This document shows, piece by piece, positions 4,976 to 11,051 of a stretch of DNA of 22,357 bases. Position numbers and translations under genes: made by a program. Position 1 is the first letter of the stretch. Each line of letters begins with the position of its first letter. The DNA is from a virus. Location: the IMG/VR virus record IMGVR_UViG_3300008952_000331, positions 1 through 22,357 of that record; one strand, 5' to 3'. The notes beneath the pieces were generated by a model, which saw only the letters and a list, made by a program, of their open reading frames with translations, had not been told where the DNA came from and made no database searches.

Positions 4976-5017
4976 ATTGAGAAACCTGAAGCAAAGCGAA
5001 AGGCTTGAAATCTTTTG

Positions 5018-5257
5018 ATGAATATCTTCGACACTTATTTCGTAATTATGGGCGGCGCACCCCCGCCACCCCCTCCACCACCACCTCCTCCGCCACCTCC
5101 ACCACCACCGGAGCCTGAAGTTGCGGCAACGGCTAGTAGGGAGAGGAATGCGTCACAGAGGAAGCGCGGCAGAAGTTCGCTGATTGCCAACACAGGCGGT
5201 GCATCTGGTTTGGGCGGCGACGATGACAGCAGCGTTAAAAAGACACTTGGAGGTTGA
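5018..5257 (+). CDS. Polyproline small protein, copy 1
   Basis: 79 residues. After MNIFDTYFVIMGGA comes an unbroken run of 17 prolines (15-31) written with all four proline codons, then a charged helix and a conserved end: RKRGRSSLIANTGGASGLGG and an acidic DDDSSVKKTLGG. The next gene is a paralogue with the same start pattern (MxIxD), a broken proline run and the same C-terminal motif. That supports ATG 5018 over the shorter ATG at 5048. Similar MGG-polyproline proteins with an RGR-S-L motif between terminase and portal genes are, as far as I recall, common in podoviruses and unassigned. It may be a minor head or connector protein. Translating 17 prolines would rely heavily on EF-P. Confidence 0.75.
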   Translation: MNIFDTYFVIMGGAPPPPPPPPPPPPPPPPPEPEVAATASRERNASQRKRGRSSLIANTGGASGLGGDDDSSVKKTLGG

Positions 5258-5259
5258 TG

Positions 5260-5502
5260 ATGCAAATACTTGATTTAATCAGTTTAGTTTGTTTTGGCGG
5301 GTCACCTTCATTACCTCCCCCGCCAGCTCCTCCTCCGCCTTTGCCTGACATAAGCGAAGAAGAGGAAAGGAGAGCTGTGGCAGAACGGGCAAAGCAGGCT
5401 AACAGGAAACGAGGCAGAAACTCTTTGATAACAAATCAAGGGGGCGCAACAGGTTTGCTCGATGACGATTCAGACGTTAAACAAACATTAGGCGGCAGTT
5501 GA
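5260..5502 (+). CDS. Polyproline small protein, copy 2
   Basis: 80 residues from ATG 5260, with TTGGAGG six bases upstream (ATG 5257 is too close). It overlaps the region around the stop of copy 1, and its own TGA overlaps the portal start as TGATG. The sequence has a hydrophobic N-terminus (MQILDLISLVCFGG), a proline stretch (PPPPAPPPPLPD), a helix (EEEERRAVAERAKQAN) and the shared tail RKRGRNSLITNQGGATGL with DDDSDVKQTLGG. Tail identity with copy 1 is high, so this is a tandem duplication within the head module. The function is unknown. Keeping both copies suggests divided roles. Confidence 0.8.
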   Translation: MQILDLISLVCFGGSPSLPPPPAPPPPLPDISEEEERRAVAERAKQANRKRGRNSLITNQGGATGLLDDDSDVKQTLGGS

Positions 5503-7380: not shown

Positions 7381-8249
7381 GCGAAGCTATAACCTCGGAA
7401 GAGGCAGCTACTGAGCATGACGAGGCAGAGAGAGCAGTAAACATCGAGCCTGATTCACAGGGTGAGGTGGAACAGGCGGAAGCATCTTGGCGAGATTCAT
7501 TACCCGATGAACTGAAAGGAGTCAAAACGCTTGAAAAGTTCAAAGATACTGACGCCCTCGCAAAAGGGTATGTGCATCTGGAAAAGTATTTTGATGGAAC
7601 GATTAAAGTTCCTGGCGAGAACGCCACCCAGGAAGAGGTTGACAAGTATTACAGCAAGCTGGGTAGACCTGACACGATAGAAGGCTATGAGTATGAGAAA
7701 GCCGAAATGCCAGAAGGTCAAGCCTACGATGAAACTTTTGAGAAGGCGTTTCTGACTAAGGCTCACGCAGAAGGGCTGAACAACAAACAGGTTTCATCTT
7801 TGTACGAATGGTGGAACGGGCAGTCGAAAGATATACATGTCCAAAACACGGTAGCCAAGGAAAACAGTATTCAGAAGGCCGAGATTGAATTAAGGGCTGA
7901 CTGGGGCAGGCAGTACGATGAAAAGATTTCAGGTGTTGGTCGATTGGTCGATCAGTATGCCAGTGGCGAGGACAGGCAATACCTCATAGACAGCGGCATC
8001 GGCAATGACCCACACTTGGCAAGGATGCTGGATCGCATTGCCAAAGATCATGGAGAGGCTAAACATTTAGGTGATCCTAAGATCAATGCGTTTACTGACC
8101 CGGCTTCTGCACAGCAAGCTAAAGACGCTTTCTACAAAGATACTGAAAGCGACGATTACAAAGCATATTTCAACGAGAACCATCCTCGACACAAAGAGGT
8201 AGGGCAAATGTTGGAGCGTTGGAATAAAACAATTTATGGAGATGAATAA
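7377..8249 (+). CDS. Scaffolding (capsid assembly) protein
   Basis: 290 residues from ATG 7377, preceded by AAGGGAAAG and overlapping the prior stop. It is very acidic and helical, starting SEAITSEEAATEHDEAERA. Then comes WRDSLPDELKGVKTLEKFKDTDALAKGYVHLEKYF, a motif common to podovirus scaffolds, then KYYSKLGRPDTIEGYEY. The C-terminus is charged (HKEVGQMLERWNKTIYGDE). T7 gp9 is of similar size (307 aa). It sits between the portal and the capsid gene, where it would shape the prohead and then leave. There is no membrane segment or enzyme motif. Confidence 0.88.
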   Translation: MSEAITSEEAATEHDEAERAVNIEPDSQGEVEQAEASWRDSLPDELKGVKTLEKFKDTDALAKGYVHLEKYFDGTIKVPGENATQEEVDKYYSKLGRPDTIEGYEYEKAEMPEGQAYDETFEKAFLTKAHAEGLNNKQVSSLYEWWNGQSKDIHVQNTVAKENSIQKAEIELRADWGRQYDEKISGVGRLVDQYASGEDRQYLIDSGIGNDPHLARMLDRIAKDHGEAKHLGDPKINAFTDPASAQQAKDAFYKDTESDDYKAYFNENHPRHKEVGQMLERWNKTIYGDE

Positions 8250-8461
8250 TGGGCCTTCACACCTCGATCAAGTGTGTGGACTGCGTTCATCTCGTTCCGC
8301 GCACGCAAGTTTGCATGGAATATAAAGCATCGGTGGATGGTGACTCCGAGCGTAATTGCTACTTTTATAAAGTCGGCGCTTACGCAGAAGCCCAACCTGC
8401 AAAGGTTAAGGGCAAGCCAAAAAAGAAGGTGCGTAAAAAAGCACTTTCATCGGCTGCTTAA
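8249..8461 (+). CDS. Small Cys-rich basic protein between scaffold and capsid
   Basis: 70 residues; the ATG at 8249 overlaps the scaffold stop. Four cysteines, CVDC at 9-12, C22 and C37, suggest a compact metal-binding or disulfide module. The C-terminal half is Ala and Lys-rich (KVKGKPKKKVRKKALSSAA) and would bind nucleic acid or a negatively charged partner. It has no relative that I can name. It lies just ahead of the structured leader of the capsid gene, so a role as an RNA-binding regulator of that leader is possible but unproven. Alternatively it may be a minor head component. Confidence 0.7.
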   Translation: MGLHTSIKCVDCVHLVPRTQVCMEYKASVDGDSERNCYFYKVGAYAEAQPAKVKGKPKKKVRKKALSSAA

Positions 8462-8492
8462 CCCTCTGGGTAATTAAGCGCCACTTATTTGA

Positions 8493-8593
8493 TTTCCTGA
8501 CAACCCTTCGGGGCCAGGCAACACTGTCAGGAGAGTCCATAGTTTGGGCAACTCTCCGAAAAAACGATTCACAAAACTGTTTTTAGGAGAGTT
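8493..8593 (+). promoter_or_regulatory. Three-stem leader of the capsid gene, candidate switch
   Basis: Stem A pairs 8493-8502 with 8525-8534 (10 bp, one G-U) and encloses a CCC-UUCG-GGG hairpin (8504-8513). Stem B pairs GGAGAGT (8530-8536) with ACTCTCC (8551-8557). Stem C pairs AACTCTCC (8550-8557) with GGAGAGTT (8586-8593), extended inward past one mismatch by five A-U pairs; it covers the capsid Shine-Dalgarno sequence. A and B share 8530-8534, and B and C share 8551-8557. So A would free the blocking arm to hide the ribosome binding site, while B would expose it. No downstream U-run exists, so this is translational rather than a terminator. Confidence 0.6.
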
Positions 8594-8597
8594 TTAA

Positions 8598-9470
8598 ATG
8601 TCTACACAAATTAACAAGGCATTTGAGCAGCAGTTCTCGGATAACTTCATTCATCTGGCAAGCCAGAAAGAGTCGAAGTTGGGAAGTGCGGTTCGCGTTG
8701 AGAATGTCAACGATGCCAAGTCATTTCATTTTGACAGAATGGACACTGTAAATATGGTTCAATCTGTCAGTCGTCACGAAGATACTCCGCTTACGGAAGT
8801 ACCTTTTTCGCGCAGACGAGTTACCTTCAATACCTATCGAGCCGTTGATTTAATTGACAGTCCTGATCGCGTCAAGATGGCTAAAGACCCGACTTCCCCA
8901 TCAATGAAACAATTGGTGTGGGCGCTTAATCGTCAAAAAGATGATTTAATTATAAGCGCTGCTTCGGGGAACGCCTTTAGTATTGATTCGGCTGATTCAT
9001 CTACAAATGTCGTCCTTCCCGCAGCTCAGAAAATTGCTCATGGCAGCGCTGACATGACATTGGCAAAAATTATTGAGTGTCGAAAGATACTACTCGATAA
9101 CGATGTTGATACGGATGAAGAGTTGTATTGGGCGATTGGGCCTGCACAGTTGGAAGCGATGTTGAATATTTCTACTATTACGTCGAGCGATTATAATTCC
9201 ATCAAAGCTTTAATGAGCGGTGAAATTAACACGTTTATGGGCTTTACCTGGATTGTATCTACTCGCTTGTCGGTTGCTTCCAGCATCCGCAAAACTCTTG
9301 CCTGGGCTAAATCCGGCATGGGTCTTGCCATGAACGGTACTCCAAACATTCGCATTAGTGAGCGTGCAGACAAGAACTACTCTACCCAGATTTTCGTGGA
9401 AGCCAACATGGGCGCAACGCGAATTGAGGATGAAAAGGTTGTTGAAGTTTCTTGTGATGAATCTGCGTAA
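8598..9470 (+). CDS. Major capsid protein
   Basis: 290 residues with a strong Shine-Dalgarno (GGAGAG) before ATG 8598. Position after the scaffold, high-expression features (strong ribosome site, tandem stops TAATAA) and sequence support the major capsid. There is an N-terminal helix (INKAFEQQFSDNFIHLASQKESKL), then the charged loop DTPLTEVPFSRRRVTF, a helix with PTSPSMKQLVWALNRQKDDLII, and ITSSDYNSIKALMSGEINTFMGFTWI, which fits the P-domain of HK97-fold capsids of podoviruses. It is shorter than T7 gp10A (345 aa) and nearer in plan to the BPP-1 Bbp17 type. A 10A/10B type frameshift extension is not seen. Confidence 0.88.
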   Translation: MSTQINKAFEQQFSDNFIHLASQKESKLGSAVRVENVNDAKSFHFDRMDTVNMVQSVSRHEDTPLTEVPFSRRRVTFNTYRAVDLIDSPDRVKMAKDPTSPSMKQLVWALNRQKDDLIISAASGNAFSIDSADSSTNVVLPAAQKIAHGSADMTLAKIIECRKILLDNDVDTDEELYWAIGPAQLEAMLNISTITSSDYNSIKALMSGEINTFMGFTWIVSTRLSVASSIRKTLAWAKSGMGLAMNGTPNIRISERADKNYSTQIFVEANMGATRIEDEKVVEVSCDESA

Positions 9471-9516
9471 TAACGCATAACTGAATGTTTAATTTAATTT
9501 TTAAGGAGTATTAACA

Positions 9517-10071
9517 ATGACAACTGCATATTCAACGGAGATCACTAACTTTCGGGCGAACCCGCAAGTTAAGTCAACTCCTGGCAGCGCACATGGGAAG
9601 GTTCGTGTATGGTCTGATACCATCGCTGTCGCAACTACGGACATTGATGATGATGACATCATCCACATGGCTTTGATTCCCGGCAATGCCAAAATCAAAT
9701 CCATCAAGCTGTATAACGATGACCTGGATTCGGGTGGATCACCCGCTCTGGTAACAGACGTTGGTGTATACAACGGCCCTTCAGGCTTCAATGACACCGA
9801 TGCTTCAGCCACTCGCTATGACGCTGGTGCTGTGATTGATCGCGATTGTTACGGAACGGTTTCTACCGTTCTCCAAGCTGCGGTTACTGCTGGCACTGAG
9901 TTTCGTTATGAAACGCTGGGCATTGAAACCATTGGCAACTACATGTGGGAAGACGCTGGATTGAGTTCTGATCCTCGCGCTGACCTCTACATCTCTCTCA
10001 CGATTGAAACAGTTGCGGCTACTGCTGCTGCTGGCGACATCTCAATTGTTGTTGAGTACGTTGTAGACTAA
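9517..10071 (+). CDS. Probable capsid cement/decoration protein
   Basis: 184 residues; AAGGAG nine bases before ATG 9517. The sequence is beta-rich with little charge after the start (KIKSIKLYNDDLDSGG, TDVGVYNGPSGFNDTDA, ADLYISLTIETVAATAAAGDISIVVEYVVD), which fits a jelly-roll-like fold. It lies directly after the capsid gene in the same transcript and before a strong terminator, so it should be made in high amounts. In BPP-1 the cement protein Bbp16 is the neighbour of the capsid protein Bbp17. By position and fold type this is the likely equivalent. No family motif is recognised beyond that, so a head fibre or minor capsid role remains possible. Confidence 0.6.
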   Translation: MTTAYSTEITNFRANPQVKSTPGSAHGKVRVWSDTIAVATTDIDDDDIIHMALIPGNAKIKSIKLYNDDLDSGGSPALVTDVGVYNGPSGFNDTDASATRYDAGAVIDRDCYGTVSTVLQAAVTAGTEFRYETLGIETIGNYMWEDAGLSSDPRADLYISLTIETVAATAAAGDISIVVEYVVD

Positions 10072-10077
10072 CTGATC

Positions 10078-10109
10078 GGGGGCAGTCCAAAAGGCTGCTC
10101 CCTTTCTTT
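10078..10109 (+). terminator. Intrinsic terminator after the head module
   Basis: A 10-bp stem with two G-U pairs (10078-10087 with 10093-10102) and a loop CAAAA, followed by TTTCTTT. It starts six bases after the cement-gene stop. It would limit transcription into the tail genes or set the high 3' end of the capsid message, like the terminator T-phi placed after gene 10 in T7. Confidence 0.85.
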
Positions 10110-10211
10110 ATCAAATGAGAAAGTAAAAAAAGTTTTTAAAAAAGTGTCACAAACTAGGTGTCTCAAGTGACTTATATGTAATAGCAACAAAACATATAAG
10201 GATCTTAAAAA

Positions 10212-10436
10212 ATGCAAAAGAGATATAGAAAATTTAGGAGTACTTTAAAAACAAGAGAAAAGGTTAAATATCCACTAAGAAAAATTATAGAAAAGACCAA
10301 ACTTGCTGATGGTTTTTTTGATAAACAGCACGTTATTTTAGAATGTGGGCATGAGATAAGATGTTCAAGTGGATCAATTTACAAGGCAAGGTGCTATAGG
10401 TGTCCAAAAAAAAATATGGATTCAGAAGAGGCTTAG
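10212..10436 (+). CDS. AT-rich Cys/His-rich small protein, probable moron
   Basis: 74 residues from ATG 10212, with AAGGATC nine bases upstream. The N-terminus is very basic (QKRYRKFRSTLKTREKVKYP). The rest has a Cys/His cluster: LECGHEIRC, then ARCYRCPKK, giving C44, H46, C50, C60, C63 as possible zinc ligands. Codon use differs from neighbours: AGA, AAA, ATA and TTA dominate, and the gene is clearly more AT-rich than the capsid or tail genes. It stands alone between a terminator and the tail genes. This is the pattern of a moron gained by transfer. Function is unknown; DNA or RNA binding is likely. I found no canonical promoter upstream. Confidence 0.7.
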   Translation: MQKRYRKFRSTLKTREKVKYPLRKIIEKTKLADGFFDKQHVILECGHEIRCSSGSIYKARCYRCPKKNMDSEEA

Positions 10437-10475
10437 CACAGTTTAGTAAAATTGTGAATTATACAAGGAATTCAA

Positions 10476-11051
10476 ATGGCAAGTTTTGTAGAGATTGCAT
10501 CAAACGCACTTCGTTTACTTGGCGACGATCCGATTACATCATTCAGTGATGATACGGAGCGCGCCAGGCTAGTAAACGCCGTTTATGAGGAGTTGCGCAA
10601 TGAAGTTGCTCGCGCCGCTATTTGGAATTGTTGTAAGGCCAGACAGGTATTAGCTTCACTCACTGAAACACCTGCCTTTGGTTGGGCCTATTATCACCAA
10701 CTGCCTGCCGATTGTTTGCGTGTGGTGAATGTCCTTTCTGGCAGTTCTGTCATAGACCACGAGGTTGAAGGCCGTAAATTGATGACCGATGTGTCATCAG
10801 TCAATCTAATCTACATAAAACGAATTACAGACCCTAACGAATTTGATGCTCTGTTTATATCAGCGTACACCGCGCGAATTGCTGCGGAGTTGGCGCTCCC
10901 CATTACTGGAAGTAATACCGCGTCGAACGCCATGTGGCAATTGTATGAAAGAAAAGTTCGCGAAGCTCGCACAGTCGATTCCCAGGAAGGGACTCCAACA
11001 GGGTTTGACGCACAATCAATCGTAGACGCGCGCTCAGGGACGGTAGTATAG
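10476..11051 (+). CDS. Tail tubular protein A, T7 gp11-like
   Basis: 191 residues, close to T7 gp11 (196). The N-terminus ASFVEIASNALRLLGDDPITSFSDDTERARLVNAVYEELRNEVARAAIWNCC is distinctive of the podovirus gatekeeper family. It continues with YYHQLPADCLRVVNV and the helix YTARIAAELALPITGS, then a charged C-terminus. It forms the ring between the portal and the nozzle. AAGGAATT precedes ATG 10476. It ends exactly where tail tubular protein B begins, so the two are coupled. Confidence 0.93.
   Translation: MASFVEIASNALRLLGDDPITSFSDDTERARLVNAVYEELRNEVARAAIWNCCKARQVLASLTETPAFGWAYYHQLPADCLRVVNVLSGSSVIDHEVEGRKLMTDVSSVNLIYIKRITDPNEFDALFISAYTARIAAELALPITGSNTASNAMWQLYERKVREARTVDSQEGTPTGFDAQSIVDARSGTVV

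Follow-up and report, generated by a model that had tools for sequence, protein, structure and literature searches.

The capsid locus and its leader

The window, by which we mean the whole stretch of 22,357 nucleotides analysed here, represents part of the genome of a podovirus of the HTVC010P type. The major capsid protein gene (8598..9470, + strand, ATG at 8598) matches PHROG 3437, major head protein, with an E-value of 1.5e-85, and the isolated phages nearest to it by capsid protein are HTVC010P-type pelagiphages (39-46% identity). The gene is preceded by the Shine-Dalgarno sequence GGAGAGT (8586..8592, + strand), which among the listed genes of the window is used by the capsid gene only. 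Directly upstream lies a small Lys-rich ORF (8249..8461, + strand), for which neither a PHROG nor a phage match was found. The terminase-portal interval of the window (5015-5502) contains two small tandem ORFs with proline runs, which look like paralogues and end alike (SLI.N.GGA.GL..DD..VK.TLGG).

A first-pass annotation of this DNA had proposed a translational switch at 8493-8593, made of three mutually exclusive stems (A, B and C). GGAGAGT indeed occurs at 8530-8536 and 8586-8592, with ACTCTCC between the two copies at 8551-8557; over the entire + strand there are three copies of GGAGAGT (the third at position 70) and one of ACTCTCC. The leader folds better than each of 200 dinucleotide shuffles (z -2.92). 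The structured element begins upstream of the annotated interval and spans 8456-8557, comprising a first hairpin, a middle domain of two helices (P1 and P2) and a second hairpin.

Hairpin I (8456..8479, + strand; GCUUAA-C-CC-UCU-GG-[GUA]-A-UUAAGC) lies outside the interval that had been annotated. It includes the stop codon (8459-8461) of the Lys-rich ORF, the 3' end of which is therefore within the hairpin, and it shows a three-base bulge (8470-8472) next to a C.A wobble (8462.8473); the same module is found upstream in relatives. P1, which encloses P2 and corresponds to stem A (8496..8531, + strand), has a core of UGAC (8498-8501) paired with GUCA (8526-8529), to which CC (8496-8497) and GG (8530-8531) may add; P2 consists of CCC (8504-8506), a UUCG loop and GGG (8511-8513). 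Hairpin II, the former stem B (8530..8557, + strand; GGAGAGU-CC-AUAGUUU-GG-[GCA]-ACUCUCC), has its bulge at 8548-8550 with an A-U pair beside it (8551.8536). Common to both hairpins is a module in which CC/GG is combined with a bulge of three bases (consensus RYA); the adjoining pair is G.U, A.C or A-U and only very seldom G-C, and the window carries this combination with its R.Y pair twice, at 8456-8479 and 8530-8557. Stem C is a possible alternative (8551..8592, + strand) in which 8551-8557 pairs with the Shine-Dalgarno sequence at 8586-8592, to the exclusion of hairpin II.

The best fold (TTTCCTGACA/TGTCAGGAGA) does share GGAGA between stems A and B, as had been claimed, but the true overlap is limited to GG(A), the part of stem A that is conserved in relatives being TGRY/RYCA plus CC:GG only. 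The two stems need not exclude each other, since a four-pair P1 coexists with stem B. A transcription attenuator would require an intrinsic terminator in the leader, and there is none: the sole terminator-like site across 7800-10600 is a hairpin at 10078-10102, situated after the gene next downstream of the capsid gene. A leader peptide running through hairpin II from a TTG or GTG start near 8544 was also considered and dropped, one relative (L022) having no start codon there.

In L044, L122, L124 and their relatives the RNA element is located wholly within the C-terminal coding part of the Lys-rich ORF. The counterpart reading frame spans the entire element in the L044 group, and in L044 itself it stops 20 bases upstream of the capsid ATG. 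In these phages, the same bases thus encode both a protein and an RNA structure.

Covariation and homology searches

Compensatory changes were present in the direct relatives of the window (L004-L006). A DNA pattern limited to the element's first half plus the GTCC of hairpin II retrieved 22 contigs, against fewer than one expected by chance according to our own estimate, and all those that were read out corresponded to the region upstream of this clade's capsid gene; a looser pattern retrieved 39 contigs. In an alignment of 19 distinct leaders of the window's clade (A3), P1, P2 and hairpin II were paired in 100% of the cells. Four pairs were changed on both sides, and the covariation score was matched by none of 500 shuffles and by no slid version. 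The compensatory changes affected two pairs of P1 and one of P2, and no cell was broken in either helix. P1 appeared as CCTGAC/GTCAGG, CCTGGC/GCCAGG or CCTGGT/ACCAGG, and hairpin II as GGAGAGT/ACTCTCC or, in L005, as GGGAAGT/ACTTTCC. Part of the clade has an additional helix, P3 (GCAT..ATGC or GCGT..ACGC). Covariation in at least two stems, which the annotation had named as the support to look for, was found in P1, P2 and hairpin II of these 19 leaders; stem C showed none.

Hairpin I, P2, P3 and hairpin II occur in a sister clade (alignment A5). There, the 25 pairs were formed in 96.4% of cases, 11 of them had changed on both sides, and the covariation score was reached by 0 of 500 shuffles. 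In hairpins I and II alike, the G.U pair adjoining the bulge never varies, whereas its neighbours covary. We built a model (R2) from nine members of this sister clade and none of the window's clade. Applied to 71 loci (531 kb) with E-values up to 10, it gave 27 matches, 25 of which fell in capsid leaders. Members of the window's clade were matched in their capsid leaders by this model, the best being L044 (E 2.6e-4), L129 (4.7e-4) and L045 (8.2e-4), and the window itself reached an E-value of only 1.2, at the correct position; all these values are rough, owing to a short calibration. With the same reservation, MW202898, a metagenome-assembled complete phage, was matched with E 0.0034, and weaker matches were obtained for Vibrio phage K300 (E 0.75) and Skadi (E 0.94).

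In the alignment of the resulting 31 leaders, 20 of the 25 pairs were changed on both sides, a figure that leans towards the structure of the model because the alignment was fitted to it. A further model (R3), built from these 31 sequences, matched seven loci outside its training set, all seven in capsid leaders, including that of HTVC010P itself (E 0.01, again a rough value). In K300 and Baldr, the one convincing pair of hairpins in the genome is the pair at the capsid gene; a second pair in K300 (1032-1152) falls inside coding sequence, and we attribute it to chance. No pair was found in Alteromonas phage ZP6 (L149) under the stricter pattern, and the modules are visible by eye in its leader. 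K300 (L147) and ZP6 both have an annotated gene for 2-aminoadenine synthesis (PurZ type), so that their DNA may contain a modified base.

None of the 4,227 Rfam families matched the window or its relatives at or above the curated score, weak chance matches appearing only at permissive thresholds. A nucleotide search of phage records gave no match, and a literature search found no description of the leader, the limited collections searched making this no proof of absence. The leader is real, structured, conserved and absent from Rfam. The covariation and the lack of an Rfam match bear out the annotation's view that a structured RNA of no recognised class precedes the capsid gene, and the best reading is that of a new phage cis-regulatory RNA family. 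Its compact, multi-helix form with conserved bulges, in a leader, is what one might expect of a riboswitch, an RNA that binds a small molecule. Yet no Rfam riboswitch matches it, it precedes the capsid gene only rather than a metabolic gene, and searches of 596 bacterial genomes (0 of 297, then 1 of 299 with E 0.0066, at low sensitivity) gave a single match at the level of chance, so that we regard a riboswitch as highly improbable.

The shared module and pairing with the Shine-Dalgarno sequence

The same module was present in many leaders of 80 capsid loci, most of them at 44-74% identity. The numerous phages related to the window that carry the folded leader are for the most part marine. With a script pattern that had partly been derived from the same leaders, hairpin II was found in 50 of 76 non-redundant leaders, against 0.9 in shuffles (maximum 4) and in 0.6% of 1,464 control windows; hairpin I in 42 (3.0 in shuffles); and both together in 31 (0.15 in shuffles). 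Among candidates chosen by sequence only, 66 had outer stems of at least three pairs, compared with 0.8 in shuffles. The same search did not recover the module in every member of the family. The middle domain consists of P1/P2, with P3 as well in many relatives, and hairpin II ends at a median of 38 bases from the capsid ATG.

While every type of pair occurs in the outer stem of hairpin II, the R.Y pair by its bulge was G.U in 22, A.C in 21, A-U in 7 and G-C in none of the 50 non-redundant leaders; when the bulge pattern was relaxed, G-C was observed beside the bulge in 2 of 57. The identity of the bulge follows the adjoining pair, GUA going with G.U (21/22) and AUA or ACA with A.C (23/24). 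An A.C wobble resembles a G.U wobble in shape, and the choice of pair beside the bulge therefore seems to reflect a requirement for a particular three-dimensional shape. The exchange of A.C for G.U at this place makes a sharp structural prediction.

We considered the possibility that hairpin II and stem C are the alternative states of a switch, in which folding or a ligand would leave the capsid Shine-Dalgarno sequence free or masked. Stem C had been drawn correctly in the annotation and can form in the window's clade: the six-pair core between the hairpin arm and the Shine-Dalgarno sequence is intact in 19 of 19 leaders. Except in the L122-type group, for which the two states are predicted to be about equal (-1.1 to +1.1 kcal/mol), the masked state is predicted to be favoured by 3.1 to 11.7 kcal/mol. 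In the L122 group, furthermore, the 5' arm of hairpin II has drifted to G.U pairing with ACUCUCC and the Shine-Dalgarno sequence unchanged. Against this, stem C has no covarying pair in the window's clade, and, for the spacer that separates its arms, shuffling did not weaken the folding (mean z +0.38). Its A/T extension (AAAAAAC..GTTTTT) is not common to most of the clade, L005 having a similar one.

Outside the window's clade, stem C is absent. In 43 of 50 non-redundant relatives the arm lacks complementarity to the Shine-Dalgarno sequence (2-5 pairs), although hairpin II persists, and the seven leaders with 6-7 such pairs all belong to the window's clade. Of the two repeats and ACTCTCC, expected by the annotation to be kept in relatives, the sequences that make up stem C are conserved within that clade; in other clades the hairpin arm does not show the complementarity. 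The conservation of both strands is already accounted for by hairpin II and the ribosome. GGAGAG is a usual Shine-Dalgarno sequence in this phage family also where hairpin arms differ. A simple attenuator would in addition leave two RYA-bulge hairpins, the wobble pair and hairpin I unexplained. With stem C lacking covariation, its spacer unselected and the complementarity confined to one clade, the switch is not supported as the purpose of the element, and we judge such a mechanism unlikely. The pairing of the arm with the Shine-Dalgarno sequence may be used in the window's clade; it does not appear to be what the family conserves.

Several other capsid leaders deserve mention. More distant loci (L009, L010, L013) have different, apparently structured capsid leaders to which the module search is blind; those of L009 and L010 both carry GGACACTCC..GCGAAG. 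HTVC028P-like pelagiphages (L039, L153, L154, L158) have a simpler hairpin, GAU-CCGN..NCGG-ANA-AUC, which may be a reduced hairpin II. In L167, a capsid gene of this family is present within a 439 kb bacterial contig (Phyllobacterium onerii), which suggests a prophage, and its leader contains a matching hairpin (GACG-C-CCGG..CCGG-ACA-A-CGTT).

Place in the transcript and candidate functions

In about nine leaders, a -10 box is situated 10-14 bases 5' of the first hairpin. K300 has TTGACG-17-TATAAT and ZP6, by eye, TTGACA-17-TATAAT. Over all leaders the excess of -10 boxes was modest (13/57, against a background of 8.5%), and a promoter scan of the window recognised no sigma-70 promoter directly before the element. 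The spacing between a sigma-70 -10 box and hairpin I in several relatives places the predicted 5' end of the capsid transcript at this hairpin.

Such a position would suit an RNA of the put type, which in the nascent leader would bind host RNA polymerase and thereby promote read-through of a long structural operon by antitermination or anti-pausing. HK022 putRNA is about 70 nt long, with two stem-loops, putL lying just downstream of PL (PMC9378689). The likeness, drawn from descriptions, lies in the two bulged hairpins, here near the predicted transcript start. The annotations of K300, Baldr and ZP6 show no phage RNA polymerase gene, Skadi is likewise described as lacking its own RNA polymerase (PMC10504331), and the window has its terminator-like site (10078-10102) downstream. 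However, put belongs to early genes and has RNA polymerase as its partner, whereas the element described here goes with a single late gene, from which it keeps a fixed short distance, and a recognisable promoter is not seen in every clade; we consider this function quite unlikely.

In several clades hairpin I starts near the 5' end predicted for the transcript, and capsid mRNA must be abundant; both points would also agree with a passive 5' structure shielding this mRNA from decay, or with a site at which a host RNase processes it. Passive protection, though, requires neither a conserved bulge, nor a wobble pair that depends on it, nor two copies of the module, and the helices are short for RNase III, making this explanation very unlikely in our estimation.

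The comparison of sequences shows hairpin I, a middle domain and hairpin II, with one module shared by the two hairpins, at a site a few tens of bases 5' of the capsid start codon. The most likely reading of this arrangement is a protein-bound regulatory leader, the mechanism of which we infer; a ligand, a role in contacting the polymerase or passive protection of the mRNA also fit the anatomy. More precisely, we see about an even chance that the leader acts in cis as a structured RNA which HTVC010P-type phages have conserved, and that it is bound by protein through its two bulged hairpins and influences capsid expression. The putative protein, of phage or host origin and possibly a dimer, would bind both hairpins and set the translation or the lifetime of the capsid mRNA. 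Hairpin II would end at about the upstream edge of the ribosome footprint, followed by an A/T-rich spacer and then the Shine-Dalgarno sequence. In the window's clade only, opening of hairpin II would allow its 3' arm to mask the Shine-Dalgarno sequence; since it is the opened hairpin that frees the masking arm, binding at hairpin II would there favour translation.

Going further, we lean slightly towards the view that these leaders form a class of phage RNA that is widespread and so far undescribed, the two bulge-plus-wobble modules (G.U or A.C) making up a tandem recognition site. Located at the 5' end of the major capsid mRNA or close to it, this site would control the synthesis of the capsid in oceanic HTVC010P-type phages. 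These phages are abundant in the ocean, and the leader may bear on the way in which they time capsid synthesis, having no RNA polymerase of their own. Should the module prove to be bound by a protein, it would constitute a new motif for RNA recognition and give experimental access to the control of late genes in these phages. The paper on Skadi identified no ribonucleotide switches (PMC10504331), though the group to which this phage belongs bears the present leader.

Comparative analysis of marine phages and metagenomes has revealed other structured RNAs, the manA and wcaG motifs (PMC2864571). These are, however, associated with metabolism or exopolysaccharide genes in T4-like cyanophages, and no Rfam model matches the element described here. 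With the riboswitches and attenuators that mask a Shine-Dalgarno sequence, the element shares an arm which, in the window's clade, can choose between its own hairpin and the Shine-Dalgarno sequence; it differs from them in that the masking stem lacks covariation and is absent in other clades, and in having no known ligand. In the translational operators of phages, such as the MS2 coat-protein hairpin and the T4 gp32 and RegA operators, translation is controlled by the binding of a protein. The present leader differs from these in having two three-base-bulge modules and a middle domain, in leaving the Shine-Dalgarno sequence outside the structure in most relatives, in belonging to a double-stranded DNA podovirus and in that its binder is putative; it resembles them in being a small RNA structure upstream of a gene of the phage, in this case the capsid gene, which a bulged hairpin precedes.
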